From Methanolobus vulcani (GTDB lineage Archaea > Halobacteriota > Methanosarcinia > Methanosarcinales > Methanosarcinaceae), in contig NZ_FNCA01000002.1 in the NCBI RefSeq assembly GCF_900100715.1, positions 62,001 to 126,000 of the forward strand: a DNA stretch of 64,000 nt, read 5' to 3'. This document shows, piece after piece, positions 45,528-58,602 of the stretch (position 1 is its first letter; every line of letters begins with the position of its first letter). The position numbers and the translations under genes were made by a program. The notes beneath the pieces were generated by a model. That model did no database searches, was not told the origin of the DNA, and saw only the letters and a program-made list of their open reading frames with translations.

Positions 45528-45572
45528 TGTTTTCATCCCTAAAATTACTTTGAACAAACGGTGAGCTTGTGA

Positions 45573-45582
45573 TTTATATCTA
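45573..45582 (-). promoter_or_regulatory. TATA box of cdc48
   Basis: The minus strand reads GATATAAATC about 45 bp before the start codon, as expected for a TATA box with a start site near 45550. The element edge lies just upstream at 45604, so the promoter core is intact. Confidence 0.5.
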
Positions 45583-45603
45583 TCTATTTTATTCTAAAGA
45601 ATA

Positions 45604-45616
45604 AATAAGATATGGT
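45604..45616 (+). other. Candidate attL (13-bp direct repeat)
   Basis: AATAAGATATGGT is repeated at 58424-58436, just outside the integrase gene. The repeats share a further loosely matching CTAAA just upstream. They bracket the whole AT-rich block. Confidence 0.6.
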
Positions 45617-45891
45617 AATTTAATTACAAAACATATATCGAAGTCAGCAAAAATGAAAAATAATGTTGATTAATTTCAATCTTGAATGAATAGCATATTC
45701 ATATATCATTATAATATATTACAATTGATATCATACAAGAACTGTTGATTAAAAGTTCGAAATATGTGGACCGGATTATCTAGCCTTGTATCTTGAGCAG
45801 AGTTGCACGGTAAAAATTCTAATATCTCTGAACCAATAGTTTTGAATTACTGTGATTCAGTTGATACTTAAAAACTTGAACGAACCAATTT

Positions 45892-46311
45892 TCATTTCAA
45901 GTCTATATTTTTTATTGAATCTGAGCGAATTTTAAATCCAACTAACGACTCAACGATTTTCTCTTTAATCTGCTCACGACTGTCATTTTTATTCGTATGT
46001 ATTTCAGATGCTTGTGTTAATGCTAGCAAATCTTTCTTAGTTTTCAACATAGCTTCATTTTCAATAATTTGATATGCCTCATCCCTTGTTTCACAAGAAC
46101 CAATCCTATCAGCTATATTGCGATAAATAGAAACATCTATCTCTTTATTATCATTAATCTCTTTTTTGTGATTCGATTTTGTTTCGTATACTAAATGTCC
46201 GTCTCCTGCTAGAAGTTCATTATATTCCTTATCAGAAATAGTGGAAAGTGTTTCTGACATTATTTCAAGCATCTTCAACAAATCTTGTCTTTTAATGGGC
46301 ATAGTAATCAT
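45892..46311 (-). CDS. Small partner protein of ParA
   Basis: The 139-residue protein is charged and helical (MPIKRQDLLKMLEIMSETLSTISDKE near the start). A short C-terminal basic tail and a predicted coil around 60-110 are visible. Its ATG lies 6 bp after the ParA stop, the usual place for a ParB-like centromere binder, but I see no ParB motif. The partition role is inferred from position. Confidence 0.55.
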   Translation of the reverse strand: MITMPIKRQDLLKMLEIMSETLSTISDKEYNELLAGDGHLVYETKSNHKKEINDNKEIDVSIYRNIADRIGSCETRDEAYQIIENEAMLKTKKDLLALTQASEIHTNKNDSREQIKEKIVESLVGFKIRSDSIKNIDLK

Positions 46312-46317
46312 TTCATA

Positions 46318-47250
46318 TTACATTTTGGATAAAAATTCATTCGTCAAATTTTTAAGCTCAGACTTAACATCAATATAAGTTTTACCAGAAACACTTTGTG
46401 TAACTACGGGAACCCCATATTGTGGTGCATCAGCATAAATTGTTTTATTTTCTCTAATCATAGTATCAAATGTTGGTATTGATAGTCTTTTGACTTGATT
46501 GATAAATGCTTGCTGAGCAGATATAGGTGCGTTTGATCTTATGAAAAGCATCGTAAAAACAACACCAATCATTTCAGGACCAAGTAAATCCCATTCATCT
46601 TCATCACTTCCTTCTACTGTATCTGATACATACATGTTGTAGTCTTTTATCAATTCATCTACATGTTTTTGCAGTTGGTCAATACCTAATGTGGATAAAT
46701 AATCAGGTTTTGCAGGAATCATGTAAGCATCACTGGCTACAAGAGCGTTTCTTGTGACAATATTAAAATTAGGAGGGCAATCAATAAGAACAAAATCATA
46801 TGGACTTTCTTCCATATTATTTAATCCATTTTTTAATCGGCTATATACACGCAAATAATTTTTTCTAGATTGTCTAGGAGATGCTCCGCCAAGTTTTGTG
46901 GCTAATTCCAAGTCTATGTTAATTAAACCGAGGTGGGAGCAAATGAGATCTACTTTTCCAGTTCCTGTTATATCTTTATTGACTCTTTCAGGAGTAATTA
47001 TCAAATCACTTATATTAAAATCAGACTCGTCATCTAAAAAAGCATCGTACCATTTTTTAATAGTTTTTGATTTCTGATACTTTTTTTGCCAATTGTCAAC
47101 AGTAATAAATGAAAACGTTAAGTTTGTTTGTGGGTCCAAATCAATACATAGAACTTTATAACCTTCTGTTGCTAGATTGGCAGCAATATTAGCGACAAGT
47201 GTTGTTTTACCTACGCCACCTTTATAGTTAATCACTGAGACAGTCTTCAT
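46318..47250 (-). CDS. ParA/Soj-type partition ATPase
   Basis: The 310-residue P-loop ATPase opens with the deviant Walker A KGGVGKTTLVANIAANLA, then LCIDLDPQTNLT (Walker A', the adenine-contact Asp) and YDFVLIDCPPNFNIVTRNALVASD (Walker B). The longer middle and C-terminal region matches plasmid ParA more than MinD. GGTGGAG precedes the ATG, and a TATA box lies on the minus strand near 47298-47311. It should move or retain the element's DNA if it ever becomes extrachromosomal. Confidence 0.88.
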   Translation of the reverse strand: MKTVSVINYKGGVGKTTLVANIAANLATEGYKVLCIDLDPQTNLTFSFITVDNWQKKYQKSKTIKKWYDAFLDDESDFNISDLIITPERVNKDITGTGKVDLICSHLGLINIDLELATKLGGASPRQSRKNYLRVYSRLKNGLNNMEESPYDFVLIDCPPNFNIVTRNALVASDAYMIPAKPDYLSTLGIDQLQKHVDELIKDYNMYVSDTVEGSDEDEWDLLGPEMIGVVFTMLFIRSNAPISAQQAFINQVKRLSIPTFDTMIRENKTIYADAPQYGVPVVTQSVSGKTYIDVKSELKNLTNEFLSKM

Positions 47251-47439
47251 ATTTTAAGCTCCACCGCGGAAGTTATTTACAAGATATACAAGCTTCTTCT
47301 ATATAATAAATTCATTACCTTTTATCCTGTAGTTGTCTGATCTTGTTAGTATTGCCTTGGCTGAGTTTATAGGAAAATACGAAAGAGAAGGAAAAGAAAA
47401 GGAATCTGTCAGTTCAAATACTGATAGGTGAAGGATGTT

Positions 47440-47799
47440 TCAGTAATCTTCAGGTAGCATAATTGTAAACTTGCCAATCTCGTTCATTGAAATGTAAATC
47501 TTCTGTTGTCTGCCACTGGGTAGTTCTATATCCCCACTGTAAAATGTATCAGGCTTATCCTTGAAGCCATTCGATGCATCCCGAATGATAATAGTTGATT
47601 GAACAAGCAAATCCATCAGGTTTGGAATATTGATTTCTTTATCATTCAGGTAGCCATGCTCCATAAGGTTCATTGTGACATATCTGAATAAGCCCTTTGC
47701 CCATTCAGGATTAACTTGTATAATATCAAAAAGGATACCATCATCTGCTGCCTGTTCAGATGTGTAGGTGTAAATGGGTTCACCAAAAATATCATCCAT
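47440..47799 (-). CDS. Element protein of unknown function (119 aa)
   Basis: The ATG at 47799 follows the stop of the upstream gene by one base and has AAAGGA upstream; a longer frame from 47862 overlaps the previous gene in another phase and is less likely. The product starts MDDIFGEPIYTYTSEQAADDG and contains a possible winged segment (LFRYVTMNLMEHGYLNDKEINIPNLMDLL) and a beta-rich end. No family was recognised. It forms an operon with the gene at 47801-48010. Confidence 0.5.
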   Translation of the reverse strand: MDDIFGEPIYTYTSEQAADDGILFDIIQVNPEWAKGLFRYVTMNLMEHGYLNDKEINIPNLMDLLVQSTIIIRDASNGFKDKPDTFYSGDIELPSGRQQKIYISMNEIGKFTIMLPEDY

Positions 47800-47800
47800 G

Positions 47801-48010
47801 TTACCACGTATTCCTTTGAATGGTAATCGTGAATGTTGACCTGTCAGGAGCAATGACGACAAGACCCTTATCTGTAGTTAGCATACCTGCATCTTCAAAC
47901 GTTAGAACTTGGAATGATTGTATCTCTGCATCCTCGTCCTCTTCATCTTCCCAAGTCTTTTCCCATATTGCTTTTTCAAGAAACTTCTGAAACTCTACTT
48001 CGGTTGTCAT
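47801..48010 (-). CDS. Small acidic element protein (69 aa)
   Basis: The 69-residue protein starts at the ATG at 48010 after GGTGAT. The N-terminal half is acidic and helical (FLEKAIWEKTWEDEEDEDAE), the C-terminal half beta-rich (GLVVIAPDRSTFTITIQ). It lies one base upstream of the 119-residue gene. A small acidic protein followed by a coupled gene is reminiscent of antitoxin/toxin or repressor pairs, but no toxin fold is recognised. Confidence 0.5.
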   Translation of the reverse strand: MTTEVEFQKFLEKAIWEKTWEDEEDEDAEIQSFQVLTFEDAGMLTTDKGLVVIAPDRSTFTITIQRNTW

Positions 48011-48308
48011 TGATTATCACCGAAAAGGGTTATTCAGTACATTCCTCATGTAAACTATGTATGAAAAGTTACGCTGTTGTGATAGAGGAAATAGAATAAT
48101 ATATCAGGCAAAATCAGAACGATAAGCACATGAGAAGAATGAGAGGAAGAAAGATAAGATAGTCATAGAAAATTATCAAATCTCTCACACAAGAAGAGGC
48201 AAGGGTAAATACTCCCAAATATAGACTAACTTTTCAATACTAGGATAAACTATAATTGCTAACCAAAGTTAGCATATTTCAACACAATCAACAGAAATGA
48301 TATCAATA

Positions 48309-48707
48309 TCATTGCCTTTCCGATATCATTTTCTCATATCCTGCTCTTGTCAAACCCATATAAGAGTCTATTTTTTGTGGAACTCCTCCTCTTTCCCTCT
48401 TTCTAAGGTTAAGTTCACGACCTTGAACATATAATCCATGTAGATTCATGTATGTTTGAATACCAAGCATCGTAACTCTATATTTCCACATTATTCGATT
48501 CTTAATAGGGCATTTCCCTCTTCTTCTGCCTACATATCCATAATGAAGATAACGTTTAAGACCATCTCTTACTTTTTCAGGTTCTTCATTTATCATTTCT
48601 GCTATTTCATTTGGAGATGCATACTTTGGAAAATGATTATTTATCATCCCATCAAAAATTTTATACTTCAAATAATTATGTTTATGATAAACTCCTGACG
48701 CTGCCAT
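48309..48707 (-). CDS. Winged-helix DNA-binding protein of the element
   Basis: The 132-residue protein has a helix-turn-helix pattern in YASPNEIAEMINEEPEKVRDGLKRYLHYGYVGRRRG, then a basic wing and further basic helices (KRERGGVPQKI). It is probably a regulator. A palindrome ATGATAT/ATATCAT lies at its 3' end (48297-48312), and a similar one (TGATAT/ATATCA, 48990-49004) lies 280 bp upstream, possibly its binding sites. No ribosome site is visible; the mRNA may be leaderless. Confidence 0.65.
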   Translation of the reverse strand: MAASGVYHKHNYLKYKIFDGMINNHFPKYASPNEIAEMINEEPEKVRDGLKRYLHYGYVGRRRGKCPIKNRIMWKYRVTMLGIQTYMNLHGLYVQGRELNLRKRERGGVPQKIDSYMGLTRAGYEKMISERQ

Positions 48708-49290
48708 ATTAAAAAAATTGTGAAGGATAGGACATTAAAATTTTGATGGTCAGATTAAGCTCTTATTCTTGGTAGTTCAAAGTAACACCAAATGTAACAG
48801 ATGTTTTACTAAATTTAAGACCTATAATTCATGGTCAAAACAGTTAAAAGTACCTCTTAGATTTAGTAAATCTAAATGTTTCACCAAACTTACGAATTTA
48901 TTTTACAATGGCATGGCATTTTTAGTGCCGCATCAAATCTGAATCATTGTAATCTCATGTAATGGATTGTAAAAAGTAGCCTGATATATTGATATTCGAT
49001 ATCATAGAAATCCTGTTACAGAGGATGTACTTGATAGGAAAATAGGAAAATGATATTGAAGCAAGGGTAAGGGTGGAAGTGATTTAAGCCCTTACCCTTT
49101 ATTTTTTAAGAGGTAGATGAAGGGAATGGTAACCTTCACCTTTTCATTTTCCAATGGATACGCATCGCATCTTATTGGATTGTGGTAACCATTTTTGGAG
49201 GTAGCATATGAAACGAGGATAATTTGCCACAATCCAATCCTTCTCTATCTCACAATTAAAAAATCCATTTCTTAGGACATGTAATTTTAG
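48708..49290. other. 583-bp non-coding region with many inverted repeats (candidate origin)
   Basis: No credible gene was found. The region holds a near-perfect 15-bp inverted pair (48805-48819 with 48856-48870, core TTTACTAAATTTAAG), a palindrome GATTTAGTAAATC (48860-48872), TGATAT/ATATCA (48990-49004), an 11-bp-arm hairpin AAGGGTAAGGG/CCCTTACCCTT (49063-49099) followed by TTTATTTTTT, and a 12-bp pair ATTGGATTGTGG/CCACAATCCAAT (49174-49185, 49227-49238). This density is unlike any other stretch in the window. It may hold the replication origin and terminators. Confidence 0.5.
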
Positions 49291-49521
49291 TCATACAAGT
49301 TTGAATGCCCTTAATGTGACGAATGCACCAATACCAAGTATAGAATATCCAAATACCCTAAATAGAGGTGATACTACCTCTTTTGAGCCTTCCATGGATT
49401 GGTATGCATCATCTGATTCATTGATACCTGTATCTTCGTATGCTCCACCAACTGCATTTAATCCTACCAATACGAGCAATGCAAGTGCTATCATCAAAAC
49501 TAAGCCGCCTGAAACATTCAT
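49291..49521 (-). CDS. Two-span membrane protein, candidate coat protein B
   Basis: The 76-residue protein is made of one N-terminal helix (LVLMIALALLVLVGL), a short polar linker with NESDDAYQSMEGS, and a second helix (FGYSILGIGAFVTLRAFKLV). It aligns with the 92-residue protein at 49607 over the linker (ESD/ETDA, then Y and Ser) and the second helix, so the two look like paralogs. AAGGAG precedes the start. The two-hydrophobic-helix plan resembles major capsid proteins of spindle-shaped archaeal viruses. This is inference. Confidence 0.6.
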   Translation of the reverse strand: MNVSGGLVLMIALALLVLVGLNAVGGAYEDTGINESDDAYQSMEGSKEVVSPLFRVFGYSILGIGAFVTLRAFKLV

Positions 49522-49606
49522 TTCAATATTCTCCTTCGATGGTTATTACTTGCAAGAATCGATCTGACATCATGAAAAAGAAATTATGACAAAAAGAGGA
49601 ATGGGA

Positions 49607-49885
49607 TTAAAGGAATCCCATATACCGCATTATTGCTGAAGCTCCGAGTGCCAAAATCATAAGTGCGGCCAGCGTATACCCAGACTCGATGTTACCAATA
49701 ACGCTCTGTGAGAGGTTATAAAAAGCATCTGTTTCATCAAGACTTGCTGAACTGACTACTCCATTGAGAATAACAACACCAATAATAAGAATACAAGCCA
49801 CTCTTATAATTATAGTTGTTACTTCTGCTGCATCTCCGTGTTCGACTTTCTTTGCATATCTCTGTGCTGCTGCGACATCCATCAT
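49607..49885 (-). CDS. Two-span membrane protein, candidate coat protein A
   Basis: The 92-residue protein has a short hydrophilic start (MDVAAAQRYAKKVEHGDA), a first membrane helix (about 25-46), a polar linker ASLDETDAFYNLSQSV and a second helix (about 68-88) ending in RYMGFL. This is the plan of fuselloviral VP1/VP3-type capsid proteins and of the coat proteins of other spindle-shaped viruses. Its paralog lies 85 bp downstream on the same strand, as VP1 and VP3 are adjacent in SSV1. An alternative is a pilin-like or holin-like membrane protein. Confidence 0.62.
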   Translation of the reverse strand: MMDVAAAQRYAKKVEHGDAAEVTTIIIRVACILIIGVVILNGVVSSASLDETDAFYNLSQSVIGNIESGYTLAALMILALGASAIMRYMGFL

Positions 49886-50167
49886 TTATGAATCATTCCT
49901 GTTTGTTTGATTGTAACATAATATGTTACTTTCTAAAAAATTCATATCTGAATCGGGATATAAAGAGCTATGGTGAGTTTTGAAAAAAGAAGAGTTAACA
50001 AAAGTGTAGAACTTTAATGTAGTTATATATGATTTTAAAATGGTATATAATCTCATTAAAACTTATCATTTTTGATTTACCGAGTTTACATGTCCTGTAA
50101 CTTTGATAAATGTCTTTATGGAATTGACTAAGGACTTGATTGACATTGATTTTGAAGGTGTTTGCAT

Positions 50168-50857
50168 ATGAAATATATGAAATTAGTAAATGATATGCAA
50201 GGCATGTGGGATGAAGATGAATTAGAAATAAAAATCGATACACTTAGTAATGACGTAATTAAGTTTATTGAAAACGAAATAACTATTCTTCCTCAAAGCC
50301 CTCTCAAGTACAATACAGAATTTAAAGTCTTGGCGACAATTAACAATTATAAAAAAGAAATTAGAAATTTAGAACGTATCATTTTTAATGAATTTGACAA
50401 CCCGGATTTACATCTAAAAATTCAAGGATTAAAATATTATCGACAAAAGCAAATCCACAAATTATGGTTGGAATACAAAGAACTGCTGTTCGATAACTAT
50501 GAAGAATTGAAAGAACGAGCACTACAGATAAAATCAACAGAAATTCAAAATTTGTATCAGCAAATCATATCTGACGAACAAAAACTAACTGAAATGAAAT
50601 CGGAAGAGAAGGAACTAAAGAAGCTGAAGCTGCAATCCCCAGCTAGAAACGTCATTAATAAACAAATCCGAGAAAACCACTTTAAGCAAATACCAATTAA
50701 ACAAAATATTCGATTGAATATGAATTTAATGTCAGATATTATTAGGGAACATGAGCTTCATTCTAATTTTTGCGAAGAATGTTATAACATTCATTGTATA
50801 GAACGCGAATATGAAATTTATGATGATGTATTTGATGCGGGTGAGGTGACAGCATGA
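50168..50857 (+). CDS. Coiled-coil protein with terminal Cys/His motif
   Basis: The ATG at 50168 follows GGTG by about eight bases (a TTG at 50162 is the alternative), giving 229 residues. The protein is mostly charged helix with long heptad-like stretches (about 60-190). Its tail EHELHSNFCEECYNIHCIERE holds Cys and His residues spaced like a zinc site. It overlaps the next gene by four bases (ATGA), so the two are coupled. No family was recognised; a structural or assembly role in the element is possible. Confidence 0.55.
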   Translation: MKYMKLVNDMQGMWDEDELEIKIDTLSNDVIKFIENEITILPQSPLKYNTEFKVLATINNYKKEIRNLERIIFNEFDNPDLHLKIQGLKYYRQKQIHKLWLEYKELLFDNYEELKERALQIKSTEIQNLYQQIISDEQKLTEMKSEEKELKKLKLQSPARNVINKQIRENHFKQIPIKQNIRLNMNLMSDIIREHELHSNFCEECYNIHCIEREYEIYDDVFDAGEVTA

Positions 50858-51132
50858 TTCCCTGGGAGATTTGGGCAACTTTAATAGCAATCGCAATCAT
50901 CGGAACAGCATATAGCTGGCGCATCAGGGACGACAACAACTATACAGACATTATTACAGGTTTTGTGGCAGTAGTGTTTTGGCTCATAGCAGGAATTTCA
51001 TTATTTGGAACAGGAGTTGTCACCCAGACAATGGCATATGCAAACTCATCTATGGCGTGGATGTTCATTGCTGTCGGAATTATTCAGGCACTTATAGTGT
51101 TCATCGGTGCAACTGACCTATGGCATAAGTAA
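50854..51132 (+). CDS. Three-span membrane protein of the element
   Basis: The 92-residue protein has three hydrophobic helices (about 5-22, 33-52 and 64-88) with polar loops (RIRDDNNYTD and VVTQTMAYANSS). The C-terminal end reads ATDLWHK. It is coupled to the coiled-coil gene and lies near the coat-like genes, but on the other strand. It may be a membrane partner of the coiled-coil protein or a further envelope protein. No homolog family was recognised. Confidence 0.55.
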   Translation: MIPWEIWATLIAIAIIGTAYSWRIRDDNNYTDIITGFVAVVFWLIAGISLFGTGVVTQTMAYANSSMAWMFIAVGIIQALIVFIGATDLWHK

Positions 51133-51301
51133 AGCTGACGAATACCCATCATCAACTCTCGTTTTACTATCAACTTGTAAAGTACATTGCAGTAAGGCTA
51201 ATTATCATTAAGAAGTCATGTAGTGCTTGGTTTGAAAATCAGTATAACCTCGTATGAGGCGAGAAAAAAGAAAAAAGGTATTGATAGAGGGTTAATTTGC
51301 T

Positions 51302-51760
51302 CTAATGGTAGGTTATTTTGACATTATAAACATATTTACTACCCTCTTCGTATTCTCTGCCCGCCAATATCATTTCCTCTTTTAAAATCTCACAAACAGC
51401 TGACACATCTTCTAATGAAAAGTAATTGATGACAAAATGTTTGTTAAGATATCTTCTATTAGCTTCAGGAAGTATCTGATAAGGATACAACCATCTATAC
51501 TTTTTACCTTCAGGAGCATCATAGTTGTTTTCCCGATAGATGTCAGTAATTATCGGTTTAAGCTCCTTTTGTTTTTTCTTAGCCTTGTACTCTTCATCAA
51601 GGATATCTAATGCTTCACCCTCACCTTTTGCTCTACCTGTTCTAATCAGTTCTACTACAGCTTCTCCCAAGTCGGAATATTTTTGATCTTCTTCTGATTG
51701 TTCCTCGTAAGGTATGGGCTTAACAACTATACTTTCAGTTACTTCTTTTGTTTGTAACAT
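51302..51760 (-). CDS. Element protein of unknown function (152 aa)
   Basis: The 152-residue protein starts at the ATG at 51760 (MLQTKEVTESIVVKPIPYEEQ), with AAAGGAC upstream. It is acidic and helical to about residue 75, then has a basic and aromatic part (GKKYRWLYPYQILPEANRRYLNKHF) and a beta-rich end. No recognised family. It may be a DNA-binding or structural protein of the element. Confidence 0.5.
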   Translation of the reverse strand: MLQTKEVTESIVVKPIPYEEQSEEDQKYSDLGEAVVELIRTGRAKGEGEALDILDEEYKAKKKQKELKPIITDIYRENNYDAPEGKKYRWLYPYQILPEANRRYLNKHFVINYFSLEDVSAVCEILKEEMILAGREYEEGSKYVYNVKITYH

Positions 51761-52172
51761 TTTTATTCACTGTCCTTTATACAACGTGAAGAAGGACAAA
51801 AAAAGTATAAGCATCGAATCTCCAAAAGTACAGTATAAATACTTTCTTCTCAGACACGCCGGGGTACTTCTTAGACTGTCTATTACTATTCAGCCTAAGC
51901 CCAATTGTTCTCTTCTACTCTTAAATGGACGTTCTGATTATTAAGTGTTGTCGTATTCTATAAAATCAGATAGTGTCGACTGATAATTAAACAAGAGCTT
52001 TTAAATAGGGTTAATTATTACCTTCAAATGCAAGTTATCTATAATTCATACGGATTCCTGTAAACTTTTGGATTCTCTTTGAAACTATACAAAAATATAT
52101 TAATAATCAATTGTTTAATATGCTTATCATATAAATTATGAGGCAATGCCTATTAATTGTAGAGGTAATAGT
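51761..52172. other. Divergent intergenic region inside the element
   Basis: These 412 bp contain the promoters of the genes at 51760 and 52173. A TATA-like stretch AAAAATATATTAAT lies near 52090, and AGAGGT precedes the start at 52173. No gene is supported. Confidence 0.4.
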
Positions 52173-52361
52173 ATGGGATTAGCTGATAGAGATTATACAA
52201 AAAGAGATTCAAATGGCAATCTTTATGCCACGAATAACCATAGCAGTTCAGTAAATTATTCCAATCAATATAGCAGTGCTCAAACAAGCTATAAAAAATA
52301 CAAACCAAGCTTGTACTTAAGGATTAAATGGAAACTCATGAGGTTATTGAGGTTGCGATAG
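52173..52361 (+). CDS. Small basic protein (62 aa)
   Basis: The ATG at 52173 is preceded by GAGGT at six-base spacing; an upstream ATG at 52146 has no such site. The product starts MGLADRDYTKRDSNGNLY, has a low-complexity Ser/Asn/Tyr middle, and a strongly basic, amphipathic tail ending in KLMRLLRLR. The tail could bind membrane or nucleic acid. The function is unknown. Confidence 0.5.
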   Translation: MGLADRDYTKRDSNGNLYATNNHSSSVNYSNQYSSAQTSYKKYKPSLYLRIKWKLMRLLRLR

Positions 52362-52433
52362 TACTATCTTGACCACATTTTTATATCTGACACTTTGCCT
52401 ATTTTATGAGGGGGAAGTAAGGAATTATAAGAA

Positions 52434-53411
52434 TTACAATTCCCAATATATTTCCACATTTTTAACAATGCCTAAACTTTCAAAGAATCCTCTTAAACGG
52501 ACATTATCTTTTCTTAAATTATAGAATTCATAATCAGGCGTGTTAGTATAGTAAGCGGAGACAACACCATATTCTTTTCCTTCTTCGATATATGCTATTT
52601 TGTCAAAGCTATCTAATTCATCCAATGCTGTTGTTGATCCTGTGCAATCAACATAGACTAAACATTTATCTGTTGTTGTAACAGCGTTCAGGGCATGTCC
52701 TTCAGGTCTATCTGTAAAATCTACTACAACATAAGCTGTTTTAATACCTGCATTTTCGGCATTGTTATGCAATTTTTCAGCAAAATCGGCACATACAAAA
52801 GTACCTTTTTGGTATAGGATTCTGTCAGTATCGTCCTCTTTCAAAAAAGCAATTAATTCATCCCATGTAGGATCACTTGCTGATTGATTTTCAATTAAAG
52901 TAATTGGTTCCCCAGATGCTTTTACAAATACTGTACTTGGTACAGAATCTAATGTATTTCCATTTGAGATATTTCCATCTGATGAGGAAAATGATATTAT
53001 TGCAAGAATTGTTAAAACAAATATGAAAGTAAAAAATATAGCTACGAATGGGAATTTTGTTTTTTTCTTTACGATATATTTGTTATCATTCATATAGAAA
53101 GTTGCTTCAGATGGATTGTGTGGTTGCCAATGAGATGAGCTATTACATGCAATTGTTGGTTCATAGACAGGATTCTTTTTTGATTCTTTTGAACTTTTAA
53201 TTGTATTTTTTGTTTCTTTGCGGGGCTTTGGTTTATTTAGATAAGCGCAATGATGACTTTCGGGTAAACGATGCGAAGCACAAAATGTACCATGACATCT
53301 GCTACATTTAAATGGGAGGGCAAATGTTTTTGATTTTATTACTTTGTGACCTCCAGTTTCATAGGAATAGTCACTTCCTGTTATTTCGTTACCGCAATAA
53401 TCGCATTTCAT
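52434..53411 (-). CDS. AN1 zinc finger-membrane helix-transglutaminase-like protein
   Basis: The 325-residue protein begins with a zinc finger whose ligands follow the AN1 spacing: C3, C6, then C36-x2-C39-x4-C44-x2-H47-x5-H53-x-C55. A Lys-rich linker leads to one membrane helix at about 120-141. The C-terminal part (about 180-290) has the transglutaminase-like triad in order: C207 in GTFVCADFA, H239 in EGHALNA and D255 in VYVDCTG. Such folds act as proteases, amidases or cross-linkers. AN1 fingers occur mainly in eukaryotic ubiquitin-linked proteins and scattered archaea. The order suggests an inside finger and an outside catalytic domain, but topology is not proven. Confidence 0.72.
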   Translation of the reverse strand: MKCDYCGNEITGSDYSYETGGHKVIKSKTFALPFKCSRCHGTFCASHRLPESHHCAYLNKPKPRKETKNTIKSSKESKKNPVYEPTIACNSSSHWQPHNPSEATFYMNDNKYIVKKKTKFPFVAIFFTFIFVLTILAIISFSSSDGNISNGNTLDSVPSTVFVKASGEPITLIENQSASDPTWDELIAFLKEDDTDRILYQKGTFVCADFAEKLHNNAENAGIKTAYVVVDFTDRPEGHALNAVTTTDKCLVYVDCTGSTTALDELDSFDKIAYIEEGKEYGVVSAYYTNTPDYEFYNLRKDNVRLRGFFESLGIVKNVEIYWEL

Positions 53412-53503
53412 TTTAAATTAGCCTTCAGTATTTTTGTTAGTTTGTCATCTTGGATTCTTATGTAGGTATATAGTGAAAAATAAAAAAATAAGGTACATAT
53501 ATT

Positions 53504-54058
53504 CTATTTGAAAAGACCTTTAATAGAATCTATGATTTTTGATAATCCTTTTTTCTGTGGTTTGGATTTTACTTGTGGTTTATGTCTTGCTTGTGGTTTG
53601 GATTTTGTTTGTGGATTTGGCCTTGTCTGAGGATCAGGTCTTGCTTGTGTAGTCTTATTTTGATTAGGCGTAGGCTTAGTTTTAATTTTTACAATTGGTT
53701 CAGCAATACCTTTTTTGTGACCACAGACAGTACATTCCATTTCATAATAGTCAAAATTATTATCATAACGAATAAATTTTTTAGAATAATTGTGTGAGCA
53801 GTTCTCTTGTTTGCATTTTATGCAGATATTCGATTTAACGAATGTATCTTTATTTTTGTAATATGATTCTATGCAGTCCGAACAAAACAGATTTCCGCAG
53901 CTTGAACAAAGAATTGCTTTTTGTTTCTTTGTTGATTCTATTTCAATTTCCTCGACTACAACACCATTATTTGTTATAATTGAGCTGGTTTTCTCTTCTT
54001 GTCTATACTCTATTTCCAACTCATTTCCACAATATCCACAAAAACTATTATTTTCCAT
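53504..54058 (-). CDS. Zinc-ribbon protein with Pro/Lys/Gln repeat tail
   Basis: The 184-residue protein starts at the ATG at 54058 (MENNSFCGYCGNEL). Zinc-type CxxC pairs are seen at CGYC, CSSCGNLFCSDC, CIKC and CTVC, so two or more ribbons are likely. Between about 130 and 170 it has an imperfect repeat (PDPQTRPNPQTKSKPQARHK). It ends in a short amphipathic KIIDSIKGLFK. It lies 92 bp upstream of the AN1-transglutaminase gene in the same direction and shares the CGYCGNE-type start. The pair may work together. Confidence 0.6.
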   Translation of the reverse strand: MENNSFCGYCGNELEIEYRQEEKTSSIITNNGVVVEEIEIESTKKQKAILCSSCGNLFCSDCIESYYKNKDTFVKSNICIKCKQENCSHNYSKKFIRYDNNFDYYEMECTVCGHKKGIAEPIVKIKTKPTPNQNKTTQARPDPQTRPNPQTKSKPQARHKPQVKSKPQKKGLSKIIDSIKGLFK

Positions 54059-54711
54059 TAAAACCCACAACATTTGTTTTTTTAAGATGTTCTATAGATT
54101 AGGTGAATTTGATATAAATATTTTGATTTATACATGAGAAAATGAAGTTACTATCAAAAAACTAATATTCAGACCAACAGAAACCCAATATGAGATTATC
54201 TAATAACACCTCTCCTATATCCTCTACATTAAAAGAAATCCTATTGACCAATACATGAGGGTAGGTTATGAATTGGATGATATGGTATGGGTTTTTATTG
54301 TAGGTATGGAGGATGGAAATATCTATGTTTTAAAAACGGAGTACCACACCACTAATGGGAGCTGTATTTTTGAGCCTATTTGAGCTATTTTTGAAGGATT
54401 TTTGAATATAAAAATGATAATGGGTGCCGGATTTTAGGTTTAATTTTGAAAATTTGGTTGTGTGCAAGAAAAAAAACTTCGTATCATAATATTTTGAAAT
54501 GGCATATTTAACAAAATAATTTATTAAATGCAACATATCATTAAATTATTCTTCTATACAATTTCCATTTTTCAAAAATAGAATATATTATATACATAAA
54601 TTAGAGTTACTAATAATGGTTTTTATTTTTATATTAGTTCAAAAATAGCCCAAATATTCCTCAAAAACCATCAAAAATATAAAAAAAGGTATTGGGAGCA
54701 ATACCTGATGT
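54059..54711. other. AT-rich intergenic region of the element
   Basis: About 650 bp with no supported gene. A 42-codon frame at 54255-54383 lacks a ribosome site. The stretch 54540-54700 is extremely A/T-rich with repeated ATTTTT and AAAAAT runs. It contains the promoter of the zinc-ribbon gene and the 3' region of the ATPase gene. Confidence 0.4.
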
Positions 54712-56328
54712 TTACCAACTAGGGTGATTTGACATTGAATAACCGTCTTTCCTTTCACCCTTTAAGTAAATGAATTCATTACTGAATTTCATTACATTTT
54801 CACATCTAAATAATTCAGTCTTGCTTCCTTCTTTAGTCACTACTTTAATGTCTGAAATTCTATCCAATAATCCTTTTATTTCACCATGACCTTTAAGTCT
54901 ATCACGGACAGTTCCATAAGGAATGTCTGCTTTTTGAGCTATGCCTGATATTGATAATCCACTATTATCATGAACACATACAAGAGCGTTCATTATTGCT
55001 CGTTCTTTGTCATCAAGACTTGACATGATATTTGTCATCTGGGTTTCGAACAACTCCTTTGCATTATAAAAGTCATCCTTTGTTGCAATAAGGTATCCTC
55101 GATCATCCTTTTCCCTTTGAGCAAAATTCAAAATCGTAAATCCTTTTACCATATCCCAGAACTTGTTAATTGCCCTGTATTTACTTTTGTCAGTACAGAC
55201 TGCATTGTCCGCAATTTCTTCAGGTATGATAACATTGAATGTCTGTTGCTTGATGATTCTGAACATTTCTCGACAGACGAGTATTTTTTCATCTACAACA
55301 ACAAGACGACTTTCACCTGTTTTGAGACTCTCATTTGTATAATCCCAGACATTATCATGCTGCTGAGTTGAATTTTCAGGTGTCAACATAAACATTCTAT
55401 CTCTTAATTCATCAGAATTCCTATTTTCAACTGATGTTAAAAGCATCATCATTCGCTTAGGACCATTGAATACTTTGGCTTCATCATTAAGAACTACTGT
55501 ATAACTAATTTGCTTTTGGAATTTAGACATTGCTTCTTTCATAATCTCTTCAAGTGCTTCTGACAAATGTGTATCATCGCTAAAAATAATAGAACCATCA
55601 AGAAGATACAGCATTCTGTATATTGCTTTATCAGATAATTTTCCAACATATACATACTCTTGTGGCATTACATGAACTGTAGATGAAACAAGATGTGTCT
55701 TACCTGACCCTTTATCACCATTGAATGTAGCTTGCAGACCATTACTGTTTAAACAGGATTGATTGGCAATTGCAATAAGCAATATTTTGATGTTATTCTT
55801 ATCTCCTGTATGGATTGTTTGAATAACATCTAATGCGAACATTAAGGGGTCTTTTGTTAGTAAAATATTTTGTGCTGTTGCTATTGCTCGTTGCCTATCA
55901 ACATCAGTAAAATGAGACTCATCTTCGCAGACATGACAGTCCGCATCGTTTTCATTCTCACTGTCCTCAGACATTAGGTAGAATAACTCAGCTTTCCTGT
56001 GGATTGCCTCCGTCACTATTTCATCCAGCAGATTTTCGCCCTCATCTTTACCAACACCAAGGCGCGAGAGTTGCTTGATTATTTTATTGTCGCGCGAATC
56101 TTTAGCTTCAGTTATTGGTTCTTTACTTGGAATAGTTTGGAAACGTGGTTCACCATTATAGATCAACTGAAAATTCCATTTCCCTTTATCATAGGATATT
56201 ATAGCTGAAATATCCTCATTGGTGGTGTCAATAGTTATGCTCTTCCCAACAGGTGGTTCGATGAGTCCATCTCGACACACGACAGTTCCCATTTCAGTTA
56301 TCGGGGATGCTTCTAATAATTCTGACAT
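54712..56328 (-). CDS. AAA-type ATPase with C-terminal winged helix, possible replication protein
   Basis: From the ATG at 56328 (after GAGGGATTATC; a GTG at 56346 would swallow that site) the protein has 538 residues. Walker A GDKGSGKTHL lies at about 203-212. A Walker B-like IIFSDDTH and a sensor-1-like RMMMLLTSVENRNSDELRDRMF follow, as in superfamily 3/AAA+ helicases. A Cys pair CHVC lies near 132. The C-terminal region ALVCVHDNSGLSISGIAQKADIPYGTVRDRLKG is a winged helix. It may be the replicative helicase or initiator of the element. No primase domain was recognised. Confidence 0.65.
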   Translation of the reverse strand: MSELLEASPITEMGTVVCRDGLIEPPVGKSITIDTTNEDISAIISYDKGKWNFQLIYNGEPRFQTIPSKEPITEAKDSRDNKIIKQLSRLGVGKDEGENLLDEIVTEAIHRKAELFYLMSEDSENENDADCHVCEDESHFTDVDRQRAIATAQNILLTKDPLMFALDVIQTIHTGDKNNIKILLIAIANQSCLNSNGLQATFNGDKGSGKTHLVSSTVHVMPQEYVYVGKLSDKAIYRMLYLLDGSIIFSDDTHLSEALEEIMKEAMSKFQKQISYTVVLNDEAKVFNGPKRMMMLLTSVENRNSDELRDRMFMLTPENSTQQHDNVWDYTNESLKTGESRLVVVDEKILVCREMFRIIKQQTFNVIIPEEIADNAVCTDKSKYRAINKFWDMVKGFTILNFAQREKDDRGYLIATKDDFYNAKELFETQMTNIMSSLDDKERAIMNALVCVHDNSGLSISGIAQKADIPYGTVRDRLKGHGEIKGLLDRISDIKVVTKEGSKTELFRCENVMKFSNEFIYLKGERKDGYSMSNHPSW

Positions 56329-56450
56329 GATAATCCCTCTTGACACGGGAATTAATCAGGAACCATTACTTACATAAGGTGAAAAATGAATTATTACTTG
56401 GGTAATTCATTTATCGAGGGATTCCTGACAGATTCCTCGTATTCCTCTTT

Positions 56451-56618
56451 TTAGTATCCCACCTGCTTGTCTACAAGATGCTGTTCAAGTACATCAGAAA
56501 TATAGGCACTTCTCGGCATGTCTCCACGAATTTCATCAATTCTATCATACAACTTAGGATGAATGGATACACACATTCCTATTTTCTTTTCAGATGCAGG
56601 AACTTTAGCTCTGACCAT
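56451..56618 (-). CDS. Ribbon-helix-helix DNA-binding protein (55 aa)
   Basis: This short frame runs from the ATG at 56618 to a stop at 56451. The product contains KKIGMCVSIHPKLYDRIDEI (strand and first helix) and PRSAYISDVLEQHL (second helix), the pattern of CopG/Arc repressors. Its ATG directly follows the stop codon of the gene at 56619, so the two are coupled. It is a likely regulator of element copy number or integration. A palindrome at 56831-56852 is a candidate site. Confidence 0.75.
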   Translation of the reverse strand: MVRAKVPASEKKIGMCVSIHPKLYDRIDEIRGDMPRSAYISDVLEQHLVDKQVGY

Positions 56619-56759
56619 TTACTGACCAACCCCTATTTCCAAAAAGGTTTCTGCAAGAGCTCGCTCCGTTGCGTTTCCTGTTGTTGCAAGGGATTCTAAT
56701 ATGTCTTTACGGTCTGTAACCAATGTGGTTACTGTCTGATTTAATTCTTTGCTGTTCAT
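56619..56759 (-). CDS. Small helical protein coupled to the RHH gene (46 aa)
   Basis: The most plausible start is the ATG at 56759 (MNSKELNQTVTTLVTDRKDI), preceded by GGTAGTGA; longer frames to 56810 are possible. It is a 46-residue helical protein that ends immediately before the RHH start. No family was recognised. Confidence 0.45.
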   Translation of the reverse strand: MNSKELNQTVTTLVTDRKDILESLATTGNATERALAETFLEIGVGQ

Positions 56760-56810
56760 GATGTCACTACCATGAACCATAAAAAATAGCACTGATGTTA
56801 TGGTGTACAA

Positions 56811-57139
56811 GAACTTCTATTCGTACCTCCAAATTATCTAAAATGATAATTTGCAAGCACCCAGTTGCCGTAACCATTTTCTCTGATTCAATTCTTAACA
56901 AGTAATTATTACTTTTTCCTAGTATATAAAACCACTGAAAATTGCAGGAATTATGGGCTTTCTTTTTTGATTACAGGTCAATAATCGACTTTTATGATGA
57001 TAATAAGTAAGCAGAAGTGATAAATAAGAATATGACCTTATCGGATTTTAGGGAGTTGAATTGAATTAATATCATTATACCACTGCGGTATAGAAAATTG
57101 AACACACGCGATGTACGATGGGAAGAACGGTAAAAAAAA
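56811..57139. promoter_or_regulatory. Regulatory region between integrase and RHH operon
   Basis: A palindrome with 8-bp arms AAATTATC/GATAATTT and 6-bp spacer lies at 56831-56852. A minus-strand TATA box TTTATATACT lies at 56921-56930, about 170 bp before the first start. These fit an RHH-controlled operon promoter. No gene was seen. Confidence 0.5.
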
Positions 57140-58360
57140 TTACTGTTGCATCTGTGCCATTTTGCTATTAAACAGTTCTTGTATTTCGGGTGACTGCATC
57201 ATAATTTTCATCATCTCTGCCATTGTAGCATTCTTATCCTTATTCGCATTATCATTCAATCCATATCCACACTTGTAACAAAATGCTGCATTCTGCGGAT
57301 TATATTCTTTGCATCTATGACACTGCACAGGCATTGTTGCATCGGGTTTTTCTTCCTGCTTCTTGATTCCGTACATTTCTAATACTGCACCATCAGTATC
57401 TTTTCCTGCCAAATGGACATAAGTTGCAGTCATGTTAGAACCAGGAACCCAACCAAGATACACTTTCATCTGCTGTTCCGTCATATGATGTGCTAAATGG
57501 GTTGCTCTTGCATGTCTAAATGAATGCGGATTTGTCTTTTTCTTGATACCTGCTTTTTCAGCAAGACCTGTCAATATTGAATAGAAACCCATGTATTTCA
57601 AAGGCTTCAAGTTCTTATCAAGTGTCACCCATAATGGTGCTTCTGGGTCGTCTTTCAATGGGTGTACATCAATCCACTGGCGTAGATAACTTGCTGCATA
57701 AACAAGTAATATTTTTCTTGCACCTGTTTTGCCTTTTGGAAACAGGATATGCACAAAACCCTCGTCATCAAATTCAACGTGTTTCAGCTTGCATGATAAT
57801 ATTTCCTTTGCCCTTGAACCTGCTTCATAAACTGAAGCAACCATAGCTTTATTTCGAGGATGATTTGAAGCTTTAATCAAGATTTCAATTTCATCGTGTG
57901 TTAACAAATCTTCAGGTAGTTTGTTGTTTGTTTTTGATGCCTTTATCTTTATCATGTTGTTAAGCTCGTCCTCTTTCAGATATTTCAACAAATCCTTAAA
58001 GTGCATCTTGCGTGTGGTTTTTGTTGATTCTGCCAAAGGCTTTTCTTTCCCTCCACGACAATAGGTGTAGGTTGTAAGGGTCATCAGATATGTCTTAATA
58101 TCTCGTTCAGTCAAATTGGACAATTCAATATCTGTATTTTTGAAAACAAATATCAGGTCGTCTATTCTTGTGCAGATTGAACTTTTTGCAACCAAGCCAT
58201 TTATCAACAAGTCATCAATATACTCATTGGCAATTTCTAAGTTTGTGCTTGAAGTTACAGGAGGAAGAACTTCCGTATGTTCTTTATTTTTAACAATATG
58301 TTCTTCGCCAAGTGCGTTCATCCGTTCACGAATTTTCTTAACTGTCTCTAAATTTGCCAT
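57140..58360 (-). CDS. int: Tyrosine recombinase/integrase with C-terminal zinc ribbon
   Basis: The 406-residue integrase has the catalytic set R183 (AGSRAKEIL), K211 (PKGKTGARK), H279 and R282 (HSFRHARAT), W304 (YLGWVPGSN) and Y314 (TYVHLAG). A SAM-like core-binding domain precedes it (about 40-140). After the catalytic domain comes a zinc ribbon CHRC/CYKC (347-364) and a Met-rich coil, as in some archaeal integrases. It lies next to the right repeat (attR), as expected. GTGAT precedes the ATG. It should integrate and excise the element at the 13-bp core. Confidence 0.9.
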   Translation of the reverse strand: MANLETVKKIRERMNALGEEHIVKNKEHTEVLPPVTSSTNLEIANEYIDDLLINGLVAKSSICTRIDDLIFVFKNTDIELSNLTERDIKTYLMTLTTYTYCRGGKEKPLAESTKTTRKMHFKDLLKYLKEDELNNMIKIKASKTNNKLPEDLLTHDEIEILIKASNHPRNKAMVASVYEAGSRAKEILSCKLKHVEFDDEGFVHILFPKGKTGARKILLVYAASYLRQWIDVHPLKDDPEAPLWVTLDKNLKPLKYMGFYSILTGLAEKAGIKKKTNPHSFRHARATHLAHHMTEQQMKVYLGWVPGSNMTATYVHLAGKDTDGAVLEMYGIKKQEEKPDATMPVQCHRCKEYNPQNAAFCYKCGYGLNDNANKDKNATMAEMMKIMMQSPEIQELFNSKMAQMQQ

Positions 58361-58423
58361 TTAAATCACAATTATCTTTATTACCCTGAAAGGATATATA
58401 TGTTATGTAATTGACTAAACATG

Positions 58424-58436
58424 AATAAGATATGGT
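58424..58436 (+). other. Candidate attR (13-bp direct repeat)
   Basis: AATAAGATATGGT is identical to 45604-45616 and lies 63 bp from the integrase start. Beyond it the sequence belongs to the host promoter region of the TRAM gene. Confidence 0.6.
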
Positions 58437-58602
58437 TTCTGCACTGACTCTGATTTGTATTGAGAAGATTTAAATATCTGTTGTGTATACTTAGCGCTGT
58501 AAGATTTGATACTATTCTGGATTCATTGATATTACATTTTTATCGTGGTTTTTTTCAGTATGGTTTCGATTCTTAATTTTGAATTAAAGGACGTGTATTA
58601 TT

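Follow-up and report, generated by a model that had tools for sequence, protein, structure and literature searches.

We report that a 12,833-bp block in a 64,000-bp stretch of the Methanolobus vulcani genome (contig NZ_FNCA01000002.1, positions 62,001 to 126,000; referred to as the window, with positions counted from its first nucleotide) is very probably a site-specifically integrated mobile element, which is integrative plasmid-like and carries a virus-related module of small membrane proteins. The element covers positions 45604-58436, both copies of a 13-bp core counted, between cdc48, which encodes a central chaperone, and the TRAM gene. Sequence comparison establishes that the block is a foreign insertion with exact ends and with the geometry of an attP attachment (att) site when these ends are joined, and that two further elements are related to it. 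The three differ in their cores, their genes for replication and partition are exchangeable, and the two relatives carry defence-type genes. We infer that excision and replication as a circle take place today, and spread between cells might occur by particles or vesicles that the small membrane proteins would form. An earlier note, made from the sequence alone, called the element undescribed, and we found no paper on it in the literature searched (few subscription journals are part of that literature, most lie outside it); it is a member of a family of integrating elements that had gone unnoticed.

The attL core AATAAGATATGGT (45604-45616, plus strand) and the attR core (58424-58436, plus strand) form an exact direct repeat, and these are the only two copies of the 13-mer in the window; as a control, equally spaced pairs of 300-bp blocks shared a 13-mer at two of the 508 positions tried (the real pair was not excluded from these). 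The boundaries that the earlier note drew from this repeat are right to the base, and much else in it held: the block is AT-rich (33.5% G+C within the element vs 40.8% and 40.5% outside), an integrase with a zinc ribbon, ParA, an AAA-type ATPase and several small membrane proteins are all present, and most genes have no family that can be named (14 of the 17 open reading frames [ORFs] have no Pfam match at the curated cut-off). The genes that it listed as ribbon-helix-helix (RHH) and winged-helix regulators exist, but since neither matches a Pfam model these labels describe sequence appearance only. The insertion was said to lie in an intergenic promoter site instead of a tRNA gene, and ARAGORN predicts no tRNA gene in the window. 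Moreover, both host promoters remain as claimed, with the TATA-like elements of cdc48 (about 45570-45578) and the TRAM gene (about 58466-58476) conserved in congeners and placed beyond the ends of the insert, and deletion of the insert in silico leaves 246 bp from the cdc48 ATG (45536) to the TRAM TTG (58603), close to the previous estimate of about 240 bp.

The cdc48 5' region was located in every one of the 27 Methanolobus genomes, and 19 congeners (L002-L020) were used for the empty-site comparison. The earlier note would have been refuted if related strains had all these genes at the cdc48-TRAM locus and no empty variant existed, and it withstood this test: for 18 of the 19 the TRAM-side flank is directly continuous and the element is absent from the site. 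In the closest congeners the matches to the two flanks share exactly one copy of the 13-bp core. Alignment of the empty sites places attB within a conserved 32-bp block, TATTTTATTCTAAAGAATAAATAAGATATGGT, immediately upstream of the TATA-like element of cdc48. Identity to the majority base averages 0.92-0.93 in this block and about 0.55 past the core, which gives a sharp right boundary; 14 congeners have the block in identical or near-identical form, and in four others it has diverged. It includes a 16-bp palindrome of host sequence, TTATTCTAAAGAATAA (45589-45604), kept in most congeners, which terminates at base 1 of the core; after integration cdc48 retains the palindrome next to it, and the TRAM gene no longer has it. 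Exact copies are found almost only at cdc48 and are rare elsewhere in the genus, and the palindrome is therefore no widespread operator; the idea that it represents the box of a regulon was rejected on the same ground. The nineteenth congener, G022, has a different insert of 2.9 kb at the same attB (G022:C2, about 1,131,830-1,134,766; L133/L134), and at least two insertions have thus used the site. Over its first 84 bp, attP arm included, that insert matches the window element's left end, its right core is diverged, and it carries one large HEAT-repeat-like gene (831 amino acids [aa]) and no integrase gene.

A related element of about 17.2 kb is present in another genome of the same genus, G008 (G008:C1 2,292,805-2,309,980; L113/L141), upstream of a different gene. 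At least six genomes, the window's genome among them, have an uninterrupted match to its joined flanks, and the cdc48 site is empty in G008, such that the two genomes provide reciprocal empty sites. A third element, of about 25.7 kb, is found in G051 of genus g7 (G051:C5, about 268,927-294,687; L114/L142), with ends inferred from an imperfect 22-bp repeat, and partial relatives exist in G006, G048 and G094. The G008 and G051 integrases are 51% (BLAST) and 52% identical to that of the window, and common to the three elements are the zinc-ribbon integrase, a two-helix membrane protein of the TM92 type, g03, g04 and a winged-helix-like gene. Specifically, g03 (47440-47862, minus strand, 140 aa) is 88% identical in G008, 68% in G051 and 67% in G048; the corresponding values for g04 (47801-48010, minus strand, 69 aa) are 97%, 70% and 71%; and the winged-helix-like core gene of the family (48309-48707, minus strand), which probably encodes a DNA-binding protein, shows 86% identity in G008, 43% in G051 and 57% in G006. 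Most other genes shared with G008 are less similar than g03 and g04 (as is the integrase), which suggests recent exchange between the elements. The replication genes differ: where the window element has its AAA+ ATPase, G008 and G051 encode a DUF927/Cch-like helicase (the two share 57% identity), and the G008 element also carries a ParB-like gene. The cargo of the two relatives, with defence labels that are annotations, includes Gabija (GajA 2.2e-218, GajB 4.1e-141) and a prokaryotic viperin (2.2e-77) in G051, and a BglII-type nuclease (2.3e-42), a D12-class methyltransferase and a PRTase-CE protein in G008; no defence-type gene was recognised in the window element.

When the ends are joined by script, all three elements (window, G008 and G051) show GTAATT-N29-AATTAC, which sits inside 19-bp inverted arms with the consensus GGATATATGTTATGTAATT. 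The left arm of the window element (AATTACAAAACATATATCG; 45622-45640, minus strand), which is also the arm seen in the G022 remnant, is the inverted repeat of the right arm (GGATATATATGTTATGTAATT; 58392-58412, plus strand) in the joined-ends pattern. The attP centres are unrelated across the three elements (AATAAGATATGGT, TTATAATATATAATAT and TGTTCGTACACAAACGATTTAT), and two of 20,000 sets of composition shuffles showed the pattern in even one of them; the shared pattern therefore fixes the element ends independently of the direct repeats. These data suggest that one type of integrase meets different targets through the attP centre. The shared design also predicts an excised circle with the junction AAACATG-AATAAGATATGGT-AATTTAATTACA, and AAACATGAATAAGATATGGTAATTTAATTACA is the sequence expected across it.

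The tyrosine integrase (57140-58360, minus strand, 406 aa; PF00589, 6.9e-22) is encoded next to one att site by a gene that is not split. Its residues R183, K211, H279, R282, W304 and Y314 occur in the order R-K-H-R-(H/W)-Y of an intact tyrosine recombinase, and together with the cysteines of the C-terminal zinc ribbon (C347/C350/C361/C364) they are invariant in the alignment of the three elements. The AAA+ ATPase (54712-56346, minus strand), with a probable C-terminal winged helix, is most likely a replicative helicase, since in its relatives (L118, L119, L121 and L123) the ATPase domain is joined to a primase domain of the Prim-Pol, DnaG/CHC2 or NrS-1 type. No primase domain is present in the window protein, and its AlphaFold model, computed without an alignment, has no usable fold (predicted local distance difference test [pLDDT] 34.5). 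Adjoining the helicase gene is an AT-rich, gene-free stretch (54074-54711), a candidate replication origin, with inverted repeats of 19 nt (95%) and 42 nt (74%), and G+C is lower in the 1-kb bin 54001-55000 than in any other bin of the window. Partition would depend on the ParA ATPase (46318-47250, minus strand; PF13614 [AAA_31], 5.6e-43; phrog_164, 4.6e-49) and on a 139-aa protein without a family (45892-46311, minus strand), which from gene order alone, directly downstream of parA, is its probable centromere-binding partner.

We propose that the integrase would recognise attP on the circular form by its two inverted arms, each of 19 bp and with 29 bp between them, and recombine the 13-bp core with the identical attB sequence in the conserved block upstream of the cdc48 promoter. 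Integration would duplicate the core, leave the palindrome beside cdc48 and keep both TATA-like elements, and excision would restore a circle of 12.82 kb. The AAA+ helicase would replicate this circle, possibly with the adjoining AT-rich stretch as the starting point, and ParA and the neighbouring protein would segregate it. Several results weigh against this reading: no conjugation, packaging or receptor-binding gene was recognised in it; the assembly contains the attL form only and neither a circular form nor an attP junction; the ATPase has no match in the phage records searched; and searches with the ATPase, TM92 (both as single sequence and as profile) and the integrase profile gave no match among IMG/VR contigs. 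The scan of genome contigs with TM92 also gave no match.

Among the alternatives, a purely intracellular integrative plasmid, with membrane proteins that serve exclusion, toxicity or the host envelope and with spread by natural transformation or host contact, comes close to an even chance. The ParA, replicative helicase, RHH-like and winged-helix-like genes, the defence-type cargo of the relatives and the lack of recognised virion genes are as expected for such a plasmid. Yet the membrane-protein and winged-helix genes are shared among the elements while the replication genes change, and this suggests a function in transmission.

Another alternative, which we regard as unlikely, makes the element a genuine provirus from a new family of spindle-shaped (fusellovirus-like) viruses; TM92 and TM76 would be the two major coat proteins, and the virions would bud without lysis. 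TM92 (49607-49885, minus strand), a two-helix membrane protein and possibly virion- or coat-like, is 86-92% identical in G008 and 60% in G051, and its low-confidence model is a helical hairpin; TM76 (49291-49521, minus strand), the second small two-helix membrane protein, is 65% identical in G008, and G006 and G094 encode further relatives. A 106-aa protein of G015 contig C32 shows relationship to TM92 (profile 3.0e-10; BLAST 5e-8 vs the G051 copy), and this protein matches a virion-structural PHROG (2.2e-4) and is encoded near a DnaA-like ATPase (1e-3) that weakly matches the lemon-shaped virus LSV-48N (9e-3). The winged-helix-like gene likewise has relatives in virus-like clusters (its profile reaches that of G037 with 2.4e-5), and Eurekaviridae of Methanosarcina have two copies of the coat protein (PMC12451623). 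Moreover, the TM92-family profile ranks an LSV-48N protein first of 404 ORFs in three spindle viruses (E 7.5e-4). The match scores 14.0 bits vs 9.5 for the best shuffle, a comparison that is overstated, since shuffling destroys the two-helix layout and any two-helix protein is favoured by it; nor does the match identify a coat protein, because LSV-48N proteins are reported to have no similarity to known capsid proteins (PMC12714723). TM92 itself has no PHROG match, the family profile matched no relevant solved structure, and a fold search in BFVD with the poor, low-confidence model was empty. The link between TM92 and the coat proteins of spindle viruses is an indirect and weak one. Neither a spike nor a DnaA-like (B251-type) ATPase was recognised in the window element, and partition by ParA is plasmid-like. 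We favour a plasmid-like element with a virus-related module because no spike, packaging ATPase or fusion protein was recognised.

A bolder version of the mobile element, which we consider rather improbable, would make it the founder of a new group in the Methanosarcinaceae: capsid-poor, defence-carrying integrating elements that spread as TM92/TM76-type particles, have one attP arm design and retarget by the 29-bp centre only, with the conserved cdc48 control element as the docking site here. Finally, a dead island, formerly mobile and now fixed as the G022 remnant at the same site might be, agrees with the lack of an attP in the assembly and with the persistence of that remnant, but is very doubtful given the identical 13-bp cores, the intact integrase with the expected residues, the presence of both arms and the similarity of g03 and g04 to their G008 copies, which suggests recent exchange.

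With respect to known systems, the pT26-2 plasmid family of Thermococcales and Methanococcales is defined by seven core genes, has an integrase that is split by integration and is reported from no orders but these two (PMC6972569). The window element resembles these plasmids in being integrated and in having a conserved core rich in membrane proteins together with exchangeable replication and integration genes (PMC6972569), whereas its integrase is unsplit and the order is another; the core genes were compared by description only. With the spindle-shaped viruses (Fuselloviridae, LSV-48N and Eurekaviridae) it shares small two-helix membrane proteins, possibly in two copies, and SSV1 and LSV-48N have both a circular and an integrated lifestyle, as proposed here. 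It differs from them in having no recognised spike or DnaA-like ATPase, and the coat homology is indirect; for Eurekaviridae (Methanosarcina spindle-shaped virus 1, PQ167755) the likeness is by description and not by genome sequence. The pleomorphic viruses of Archaeoglobi, GaPV1 and ThalV2, are similar in size, and their integrases are the nearest viral ones found (36-37% over about 60%). They are annotated with VP3/VP4-like structural proteins and a rolling-circle Rep, whereas no comparable gene was recognised in the element: there is no Pfam or PHROG hit to a VP4-like fusion protein (about 500 aa in GaPV1/ThalV2), and only two element ORFs, those of the ATPase and the integrase, are longer than 400 aa. 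The Mob M inovirus of Methanolobus profundi (PMC6813254) is from the same genus, and its excised circle was shown by polymerase chain reaction (PCR); no Pfam or PHROG hit in the element corresponds to the pI-like (Zot) morphogenesis ATPase of inoviruses. An integrase locus in M. profundi has 43% identity to the window integrase, and we rejected its identification with the published inovirus as the gene content does not show this. Like the window element, the PsiM100 prophage of Methanothermobacter (cited in PMC8371274) has an AT-rich intergenic att site in a methanogen; PsiM100 is a tailed virus, unlike the element, and is likened to it by att site and not by gene content. SNJ2-type integrases, a group for which identity of 30% or more across 60% or more of the protein would be required, are described as restricted to Halobacteria (PMC8371274), and SNJ2 is absent among the viral integrase matches listed.

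Intergenic attB sites are known in archaea; a review of archaeal recombinases describes recombination at them as untested and raises the question of whether such sites show dyad symmetry (PMC8371274). The reciprocal empty sites of the window genome and G008, together with precise attB and attP sequences, would allow integration at non-tRNA sites in archaea to be tested directly, and on dyad symmetry the attP arms are symmetric here and a palindrome borders attB. Between methanogens, the element family carries genes of defence type (Gabija, viperin, restriction-modification); it might also provide an integration vector for Methanolobus.

In the course of the comparisons two virus-like clusters with small membrane proteins and related ATPases were seen, G015:C32 (L116, 14,669 bp) and G037:C6 (L128), and these are possibly spindle-shaped viruses of Methanosarcinaceae. 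L116 has the DnaA-like ATPase and a large secreted-looking protein, and its 14,669 bp show no terminal overlap. PHROG 16261 was tried as a genome-wide marker for coat proteins and rejected as too weak (best E 2e-4, many matches with stops).

Several of the remaining genes of the window element also have relatives. A 63-aa protein (56619-56810, minus strand; 64% identity in G008) is encoded upstream of the 55-aa protein that is RHH-like by appearance (56451-56618, minus strand; 52% in G008, 44% in G006, no Pfam hit), and the gene pair is kept in G008. The hydrophobic membrane protein TM92b (50854-51132, plus strand) is 59% identical in G008 and present in only 4 of 112 genomes of the family; its gene is overlapped by that of a 231-aa charged protein, probably coiled-coil (50162-50857, plus strand), and G008 has a similarly placed ORF of 251 aa. 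A 152-aa protein (51302-51760, minus strand) has a divergent homologue in the G008 element (27%), and a 71-aa ORF (52146-52361, plus strand) has counterparts with 59% and 47% identity beside AN1-type genes in G061 and G046. Weak zinc-finger matches only were obtained for a 189-aa protein (53504-54073, minus strand), where degenerate in-frame 18-bp repeats at 53549-53649 give a tail rich in Pro and Lys. The last protein (52434-53411, minus strand) combines an AN1 zinc finger (PF01428, 6.7e-10), a hydrophobic segment and a C-terminal domain without a family hit, in which C207, H239 and D253 follow the C-H-D motif order of transglutaminases, and which may thus be transglutaminase-like. The best solved match of its AN1 finger is the Cdc48-associated Cuz1, and the element adjoins cdc48. 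This is probably fortuitous, as AN1 proteins occur widely in the family (matches, many to the AN1 part alone, in 88 of 112 genomes), and an action of the AN1 protein on Cdc48 was discarded as unsupported.

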